From positions 1 through 34,175 of the forward strand of contig JAHWJP010000012.1 of NCBI GenBank assembly GCA_019348355.1: DNA of 34,175 nucleotides, written 5' to 3'. Shown in pieces: positions 31,980-34,031 of this stretch. The position numbers and the translations under genes were made by a program. This DNA comes from Actinomycetota bacterium (lineage in GTDB: Bacteria; Actinomycetota; Actinomycetes; Mycobacteriales; SCTD01). The notes beneath the pieces were generated by a model. The model was given only the letters and a program-made list of their open reading frames with translations, was not told where the DNA came from and did no database searches. Numbering within the stretch: the first letter of the stretch is position 1; the number at the start of each line of letters is the position of its first letter.

Positions 31980-33047
31980 TCAGCCGGTGACCCGGACGTC
32001 CTTGTCGTCGACGAACATCCGGCTGCCGTTCTCGGCAGAACTCGCGAAGGCCCGCAGCACGTAGTCGCCCGGCGGCACGTCGACGGTCGCCGACCAGTCA
32101 CCGCGCCCGGGTGCGCCCTCCTCGGCGGTGCTGAAGCCCTCGTCCACGACCTGACCGCCCTTCAGCCACTCCCAGCTCACGGTGGCCTCGAACACGGTCG
32201 CCTCGCCGCCGAACTTCTCCCCCCGGCTCAGCTCGGCCCCCGCTGACAGGTCGAGCCACACCGGGCCGAGGACGTCCTGCGATGCGGCCCGCTCCACCGG
32301 CTCGTCCAGCGACACCGCGCCCCAGAAGTCACCCGGTGCTTCGCCCTCGATGAGGATCCGGACCGCGCGGATGCTGGTGGCGGCGTCGTGCACGGTCCAC
32401 ACCAGCTGCTGCAGGACCATCTCCGCCGCGGCCGACCCGCCACTGGTGACGGCCGCCTCCTTCGACAGGTTGACGATCGCGACGTCGCCCTCGATGTTCG
32501 CACCGAGCACCCGCGTCCCGGACGCCCACGGCGAGACGTAGTCGTCGTCGAAGGGTGCCTCCTCGAGCATCGCAGCGACGGCGTCGCGCACCACCCCGAG
32601 TGTCCTGGGACGCAGGTGGGTCTCGCGGTAGAGCCGCAACCCGTTCGTGGTGTCGGCCACGTAGTAGACGCTGACAGGCACTCGGTCAGGTGGTGCCGGC
32701 TGTGCCGTCGGCTCGGAAGCCGGCGGTGACGGGGGTGGCTGCGGGCTGGGTGACACCGACGCCTCGGTAGACGGTGATGCGGTCACCGGCTGGCTCGGGC
32801 TCGGGCTCGACCCGGCCGACGGCGTCGGGTCGCTGGCATACCGCAGACCCTCCTGCTGCGGGCCCGGCTGCAGGGCGAGCGCTGTCCCGGCGCCGGCCAC
32901 GAGCACCAGCGCGAGACCGGCCGCGGACGCCCGCATCCGGCGCCGCCCGCGCGCCCTCGCCACCGCAGCCTGGGGACCTGGACCGGCACCGGCCGCGTCC
33001 CTGGACAGCGCGTCGAACAGCGACTGCAGGTCGTCGGGGTCACGCAT
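31980..33047 (-). CDS. Single-pass membrane protein with GerMN-like and Gmad2-like extracellular domains; candidate regulator of the adjacent ECF sigma factor
   Basis: MRDPDDLQSLFDALSRDAAG... cytoplasmic N-term, TM ASAAGLALVLVAGAGTALAL, Pro/Ser linker, GerMN-like VPVSVYYVADTTNGLRLYRETH...AVAAMLEEAPFDDDYVSPWASGTRVLGANIEGDVAIVNLSKEA, Gmad2-like AELSRGEKFGGEATVFEATVSWEWLKGGQVVDEGFSTAEEGAPGRGDW. Confidence 0.85.
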   Translation of the reverse strand: MRDPDDLQSLFDALSRDAAGAGPGPQAAVARARGRRRMRASAAGLALVLVAGAGTALALQPGPQQEGLRYASDPTPSAGSSPSPSQPVTASPSTEASVSPSPQPPPSPPASEPTAQPAPPDRVPVSVYYVADTTNGLRLYRETHLRPRTLGVVRDAVAAMLEEAPFDDDYVSPWASGTRVLGANIEGDVAIVNLSKEAAVTSGGSAAAEMVLQQLVWTVHDAATSIRAVRILIEGEAPGDFWGAVSLDEPVERAASQDVLGPVWLDLSAGAELSRGEKFGGEATVFEATVSWEWLKGGQVVDEGFSTAEEGAPGRGDWSATVDVPPGDYVLRAFASSAENGSRMFVDDKDVRVTG

Positions 33048-33606
33048 GGCGGGCCTCCTGGGTAGGCGCGTGGTCAGGGTCCGCGGCGGAGGCGCCGCCG
33101 GTGTCGTCATCGCCGAGCAGGGCAGCAAGGGCGATGCGGCCCCGGGACAGGCGGGCTTTCACGGTCCCCTCCGGAACGCCTGCACGGCGGGCGATCTCGG
33201 CAACCGCCATCCCGCCCATGTGGTGCTGGACCAGGGCGGTGCGCTGCGCCTCGGGCAGTTGCCGCAACGCTGCGACGAGGACCATCGTCTGCGGGTCGGG
33301 GCCCGGCGTGGGGTCCGGCGCTCGGTCGGCGCGGCTGCGGGTCAGGGCGGTGCGGGTGCGGCGCCAGCGACTCACGGCGACCCGGTGCCCGACGGTCACC
33401 ACCCAGGCGCGCGGCTCGTCGTAGGTCGAGAGCTTCTCCCAGCGTGGCCAAGCCCGCACGAACGCCTCCTGCGCGCACTCCTCGGCCTCGGTGCGGTTGC
33501 CGGTGACGGCGTAAAGCTGTGCGACGAGACCGGGGAAGGTCGCGGTGTAGAAGTCGGCGAAGTCGCGCGTGGTGCTGTCGACCGCCTGGCTGCCTGCTGC
33601 GCTCAC
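33040..33606 (-). CDS. ECF RNA polymerase sigma factor, SigE-family type
   Basis: DFADFYTATFPGLVAQLYAVTGNRTEAEECAQEAFVRAWPRWEKLSTYDEPRAWVVTVGHRVAVSRWRR (region 2), LRQLPEAQRTALVQHHMGGMAVAEIARRAGVPEGTVKARLSRGRIALAALL (region 4). Confidence 0.95.
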   Translation of the reverse strand: MSAAGSQAVDSTTRDFADFYTATFPGLVAQLYAVTGNRTEAEECAQEAFVRAWPRWEKLSTYDEPRAWVVTVGHRVAVSRWRRTRTALTRSRADRAPDPTPGPDPQTMVLVAALRQLPEAQRTALVQHHMGGMAVAEIARRAGVPEGTVKARLSRGRIALAALLGDDDTGGASAADPDHAPTQEARHA

Positions 33607-33643: not shown

Positions 33644-33673
33644 TCACACGCGACGCCCGGCGGACAGGTTGCA
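33644..33673 (-). promoter_or_regulatory. Candidate ECF-type promoter upstream of the sigma factor gene
   Basis: Minus strand TGCAACC (33673-33667), 16-nt spacer, CGTGTGA (33650-33644); AAC core is typical of ECF -35 elements. Confidence 0.35.
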
Positions 33674-33677
33674 TGGT

Positions 33678-33962
33678 CTACCGGGGCAGTTCCACCGGCT
33701 CGTCCTCGCCGACGCGGTACGGCGGCCAGGCTCCCTGCGGTGCGGACACTGAGTCGAACCAGCGGTCCTGCGGCCGGGCCCCGGCCCGCTCCCCGGGTCC
33801 GCCGGCGTTGACGCCCATGCAGGTCGTCACGGCGACGACGCCGGCAATCAGGATGACCAGGGCTGCCGGTATGCCGCGGGGCAGGACAGTGGCCGCCAGC
33901 ACGAAGGCGGTCCCCGCCGCGATGCGGATCGCGACGTACGTCCACATCCTTTTCCGGGCCAT
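33678..33962 (-). CDS. Small two-TM membrane protein of unknown function
   Basis: MARKRMWTYVAIRIAAGTAFVLAATVLPRGIPAALVILIAGVVAVTTCMGVNAGG...; ATG 33962 with TACCGT 7 nt upstream. Confidence 0.65.
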   Translation of the reverse strand: MARKRMWTYVAIRIAAGTAFVLAATVLPRGIPAALVILIAGVVAVTTCMGVNAGGPGERAGARPQDRWFDSVSAPQGAWPPYRVGEDEPVELPR

Positions 33963-34031
33963 GACAGGCACGGTACGCCGGGACCGGCCGCCATGCAGAT
34001 CCGACCGATCGGCCGCACGTACCCTCGCGCC

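Follow-up and report, generated by a model that had tools for sequence, protein, structure and literature searches.

We propose that the two genes at positions 31980-33606 of the window, the whole 34,175-nucleotide stretch of DNA that was analysed, most probably form an autoregulated operon of a SigE-like ECF sigma factor and its membrane anti-sigma factor, onto which an envelope sensor has recently been grafted. On this reading, a sigma signalling system in one environmental actinobacterial lineage has gained a new sensor by gene fusion, and the pre-fusion state has been kept in close relatives. The proposal draws on observations of gene anatomy, the same locus in relatives, phylogenies of both proteins, covariation between the sigma factor and the N-terminus of its partner, and promoter conservation.

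The sigma gene (33040..33606, minus strand) encodes a protein of 188 aa with regions 2 and 4 of an ECF (group IV) sigma-70 factor. It scores above the Pfam cut-offs for Sigma70_r2 (45.0 bits) and r4_2 (52.9 bits) and above that of TIGR02937 (59.7 bits against 42.9), in agreement with the ECF identity originally predicted. The best-fitting subfamily is SigE-fam_strep (TIGR02983, NCBIfam), for which the score of 133.1 bits falls slightly below the curated cut-off of 141.55; by its sequence the protein is labelled SigE-like, not a member. The SigE of S. coelicolor is itself under the control of CseBC/CseA and lacks an anti-sigma partner of the kind proposed here (PMC8999054), whereas the window sigma gene overlaps the gene for a single-TM partner. 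Eighteen further open reading frames in the same genome loosely match the TIGR02983 model (L207-L225), and among those examined, two (L210, L216) have partners with HxxxCxxC.

The partner gene (31980..33047, minus strand) shares 8 nt with the sigma gene (33040-33047), an overlap already noted from the sequence, and encodes a 355-aa protein composed of a cytoplasmic N-terminus, a transmembrane helix, a stalk, and GerMN and Gmad2 domains. The predicted short N-terminus, one membrane span and Pro/Ser-rich stalk are all present. The single strong hydrophobic segment comprises residues 41-59 (32871..32927, minus strand; Kyte-Doolittle peak 1.96), and it is followed by a Pro/Ser/Thr-rich stalk (residues 60-121; 32685..32870, minus strand), for which AlphaFold2 gives pLDDT values mostly below 60 over residues 60-100. 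For most of residues 121-355 pLDDT exceeds 90. Profile searches support the domain identities that had been assigned by resemblance: GerMN (Germane, PF10646; residues 127-236; 32340..32669, minus strand) scores 64.2 bits against a gathering cut-off of 23, and the Ig-like Gmad2 domain (PF10648; residues 270-342; 32022..32240, minus strand), the sole Gmad2 match in its genome, scores 54.0 bits against 25.7. In a Foldseek comparison the GerMN part aligned with B. subtilis GerM (6gz8; TM-score 0.76, by target). The fold is common to both proteins (6gz8, 6gzb), but GerM is a sporulation protein with tandem GerMN domains (6gzb) and is not known to have a sigma-binding N-terminus. The description of GerMN and Gmad2 as mainly spore-germination families did not hold here: 124 of the 397 genomes sampled from the phylum contain Gmad2, which in the window's own family is found mostly on lipoproteins.

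The window partner contains no cysteine anywhere, so no zinc motif is possible, and the expected absence of the HxxxCxxC motif of class I zinc anti-sigma factors was borne out; the signal peptide with lipobox cysteine that characterizes own-family GerMN-Gmad2 lipoproteins is likewise absent from it. Residues 1-40 (32928..33047, minus strand) are the putative anti-sigma domain; two helices are predicted in it, and its sequence matches the consensus L-x-x-x-L ... R-x-R-x-x-R-R obtained from 83 partners. AlphaFold2 places the helices at residues 5-19 and 26-46 with low to moderate confidence (pLDDT about 50-76). A profile of this N-terminus searched against the PDB matched no solved anti-sigma factor of either class II (CnrY/NepR-type) or class III (RsbN-type). 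The predicted layout nonetheless resembles that of the class II structural class of ECF anti-sigma factors represented by CnrY (PMC7406223, PMC4598750), membrane proteins whose cytoplasmic domain is short, has two helices and binds no zinc, although sequence similarity is undetectable. We therefore describe the window partner as one that may work like a class II anti-sigma factor, rather than as a member of the class. CnrY receives its signal from a separate sensor, CnrX (PMC4598750), whereas the sensor domains of the window partner are fused to it.

Such partners are common beside SigE-like sigma factors. In a survey of Actinomycetota that covered 118 ORFs for SigE-like sigma factors, 104 were directly followed by a gene for a single-TM partner; the loci were drawn by sigma and GerMN/Gmad2 searches and are not a random sample of all ECF systems. 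Among 98 non-redundant pairs, the genes overlap by 4 nt in 61 and by 8 nt in 19, and the cytoplasmic part of the partners has a median length of 41 residues. The zinc motif occurs in only 2 of the 104 partners. The window pair was originally called non-canonical, which stands relative to zinc anti-sigma factors but not among the partners of SigE-like sigma factors, which as a rule have a short N-terminus without the zinc motif. The systems of TIGR02983 type with overlapping single-TM partners share with the window the sigma architecture, a 4-8 nt overlap, a cytoplasmic N-terminus of about 40 aa without zinc ligands and, in many cases, an upstream GCAACC-N16-CGT[CG] element; the window differs in its score below the family cut-off, in CGTGT instead of CGTC at -10, and in its grafted lipoprotein ectodomain.

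Single-linkage clustering sorts the ectodomains of the 98 systems into 40 families, and ectodomain similarity does not correlate with that of the sigma factors (rho 0.04). Similarity of the N-termini does (rho 0.33), also among pairs with unrelated ectodomains (rho 0.31, Mantel p 0.001). An N-terminus that tracks the sigma factor while ectodomains swap freely is what would be expected of a sigma-binding segment with interchangeable sensors, as judged from these sequences; the N-termini are short and arginine-rich, and part of the covariation could stem from composition or shared ancestry. Together with the overlapping gene order conserved in 98 systems and a conserved ECF-type promoter, the covariation gives good support to the sigma/membrane-partner pair that had been predicted. 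Covariation of the binding type would suit an activator just as well as an inhibitor, and the partner could instead be a positive co-factor or membrane tether, with an N-terminus that binds the sigma factor and on which the activity or localisation of the sigma factor depends. We regard this as unlikely. Inhibitory anti-sigma factors are usually encoded just so, by a membrane partner gene that overlaps the sigma gene in an operon behind an ECF-type promoter, and the window has this layout. In favour of the co-factor reading, RskA is reported to behave as both activator and inhibitor (PMC7509140).

The origin of the window's ectodomain can be traced at the equivalent locus of its own genus and family, where a GerMN-Gmad2 gene lies beside birA/accD and a gene for a 97-aa TM protein. 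The orthologues in five genomes of the same genus (G002-G006) and in two of other genera (G011, G012) are lipobox-bearing lipoproteins without a sigma gene. In G020 the orthologue begins at a contig end and its N-terminus is missing there, and G001 and G007 have no such gene. Wherever the flank is covered, no same-genus or same-family relative examined has a sigma gene at this locus. In the GerMN-Gmad2 tree the window copy falls inside a 9-row clade of otherwise sigma-less own-family copies (support 100), in which its branch is the longest (0.58 against 0.13-0.39). Because the orthologues are sigma-less lipoproteins and the window copy is nested among them, the window partner reads as a resident lipoprotein whose signal peptide and lipobox were exchanged for a cytoplasmic N-terminus and a TM helix, and ahead of which a sigma gene was put. 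The partner is clearly similar to the lipoproteins beyond about residue 121, and the sequence after the TM helix, 'LRYASDPTPS', resembles by eye the 'LRFATPPSSS' of a sigma partner in G001; the graft junction thus probably lies inside the stalk (residues 60-121). At the same locus of another congener, G008 retains a GerMN remnant alone, with Gmad2 missing (L106:4721-5254). The 97-aa neighbour in the window (33678-33971) was considered as the real anti-sigma factor and rejected, as it is also found at the locus in sigma-less relatives.

The graft is known from a single assembly of 259 contigs that is 88% complete, and exactly this fusion was found in no other genome. Such a fragmented assembly might join two unrelated pieces artefactually. 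We consider this extremely improbable, given that the fusion is in frame, that its promoter matches the clade of its sigma factor, and that it lies within a single 40-kb contig in which the flanking genes are kept on both sides (birA/accD on one, the 97-aa TM gene and its neighbour on the other).

The closest relatives of the window sigma factor (47-55% identity) are encoded at other loci of the relatives' genomes. Their partners are likewise encoded by overlapping genes and have the same (V/A)RARG-type N-terminus, joined to unrelated ectodomains, some of them PknH_C-like and most without a Pfam match. The PknH_C domain is known from mycobacterial kinases; the PknH_C-like ectodomains, at L083:1039-2337 (G003) and L084:3103-4419 (G002), score 32.1 bits, over the cut-off of 27, and 24.2 bits, under it. 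In the sigma tree, the window sigma and eight own-family sigma factors form a 9-row clade (support 96), split at 98 from a remainder that includes a 26-row clade (support 99). The latter consists of 19 sigma factors of other actinobacterial families (Micromonosporaceae, Intrasporangiaceae, Kineosporiaceae, Propionibacteriaceae and Sporichthyaceae), which are paired with GerMN-Gmad2 partners (support 99), and of seven own-family sigma factors whose partners carry Gmad2 and a C-terminal part that is probably a beta-propeller.

Grouping the window sigma with those 19 was rejected (AU p 1.9e-31), and so was a single origin of all sigma-linked GerMN-Gmad2 domains (AU p 3.8e-56, or 3.7e-5 when the three most isolated are left out). 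These p values are somewhat optimistic, since the groups were chosen with the trees already in view. By these phylogenetic tests, the pairing of a SigE-like sigma factor with GerMN-Gmad2 arose more than once. The operons of the 19-row clade have the same order of N-terminus, TM helix, stalk, GerMN and Gmad2 behind an overlapping sigma gene, but the window belongs to a different sigma clade and a different GerMN-Gmad2 lineage, so that the likeness is convergent. The existence of this old clade in several families might suggest that a sigma-GerMN-Gmad2 operon was ancestral at the window locus too, and that the relatives lost the sigma gene and became lipoproteins. This is very unlikely: the window sigma lies outside the clade, and the orthologues from its own family, also those in outgroup genera, are sigma-less with lipoprotein N-termini wherever the start is covered, a pattern that would require many parallel losses.

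A SigE-like sigma gene lies in the flank of 7 of the 70 Gmad2 loci examined; with Gmad2 this common, the choice of ectodomain is recurrent and not unique. (An alignment-based scan of genome contigs yielded 67 loci; a single-protein query yielded none.) The co-occurrence expected of a dedicated pair was seen in part: GerMN-Gmad2 is linked independently to other sigma factors in the phylum, but at this locus the relatives lack the sigma gene because the window carries a lineage-specific graft. Linkage could also be incidental, a sigma gene having inserted beside a lipoprotein gene whose new N-terminus is a mere membrane anchor without regulatory role; the exact fusion occurs in one genome, and the ectodomain is otherwise that of an ordinary sigma-less lipoprotein. 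We think this improbable, since the new N-terminus shares its layout and motif with the partners of the closest sigma factors, and incidental linkage poorly explains why GerMN-Gmad2 was joined to SigE-like sigma factors several times independently.

Upstream of the sigma gene, TGCAACC-N16-CGTGT (33646..33673, minus strand; 0 mismatches) is a predicted autoregulatory ECF-type promoter element. The element precedes eight of the nine clade sigma genes, namely that of the window and those of seven of its eight relatives; the ninth has TGCAACC with a divergent -10. The window copy is the only exact one in its genome. Conservation ahead of the clade sigma genes and uniqueness within the genome make it probable, at the level of sequence, that the operon is autoregulated. 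Across 24 family genomes there are 13 exact sites, against 8 control hits, and sigma genes of the window clade account for 8 of the 13; sites beyond the clade sigma promoters are at control level in these genomes, and no wider regulon is indicated. More broadly, 25 of the 98 SigE-like sigma genes have GCAACC-N16-CGT[CG] in their upstream region, compared with 0.15 in shuffles. The variant GCAACC-N16-CGTC is widespread before such genes (for example L207, L226-L231 and L258-L281), and the -10 is shifted to CGTG(T) in the window clade. Promoters of S. coelicolor sigma-E are of the same AAC(C)-N16-CGTC type, as in the TGCAACC...CGTCTG upstream of sco5358 (PMC6767563), and differ from those of the window clade in the -10, which is CGTGT in the latter.

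For the operon itself, we infer direct binding and inhibition: the zinc-free N-terminus of about 40 residues, with its two short helices, most likely keeps the sigma factor inactive at the membrane. The GerMN-Gmad2 ectodomain, held outside the membrane on a flexible stalk, most likely senses the state of the envelope, which would be the signal for release. Once released, be it through proteolysis or through a change of conformation, the sigma factor would fire the TGCAACC-N16-CGTGT promoter ahead of its own operon. The module would have been assembled recently, when a sigma gene, together with the anti-sigma N-terminus and TM helix of its usual partner, was inserted upstream of the resident GerMN-Gmad2 lipoprotein gene and fused to it in frame, replacing the signal peptide and lipobox and turning the former lipoprotein into a new outside-to-inside sensor.

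We place roughly even confidence in a broader proposal of recent sensor capture. Here, a SigE-like sigma factor and its short zinc-free anti-sigma N-terminus would have entered a conserved lipoprotein locus, and the lipoprotein would have become an ectodomain under the sigma factor's promoter; taken with the captures elsewhere, GerMN-Gmad2 would be a readily reused envelope-sensing ectodomain, and the short N-terminus would represent a widespread, structurally undescribed anti-sigma class of SigE-like sigma factors. In the openly licensed literature searched, we found no description of this set of short zinc-free partners and nothing relevant that ties Gmad2 or GerMN to a sigma factor. The set is large, its 98 systems comprising some 40 ectodomain families; insight into one N-terminus would bear on the rest, and the convergent sigma-GerMN-Gmad2 operons offer a parallel case for comparison.

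A second conserved sigma-partner operon occurs in the same family near hrcA/dnaJ/rsmE/HIT (L037-L041, L043 and L044, in G017, G021, G009, G023, G020, G015 and G012), and it was not found in the window's own genome, which is 88% complete. Its sigma factors form the sister group of the sigma clade with GerMN-Gmad2 partners. Its partner has a 'TTPE...LLR'-type N-terminus, a TM helix and Gmad2, followed, if complete, by about 300 more residues; weak PD40 matches in two of these partners make a beta-propeller probable. In G012 (L044:6999-10484), the region downstream of one sigma gene encodes two TM proteins in tandem that have Gmad2 and a propeller-like C-terminus, and at L194:2394-5752 (Sporichthyaceae) two GerMN-Gmad2 open frames are adjacent, with a sigma gene immediately ahead of one of the two.
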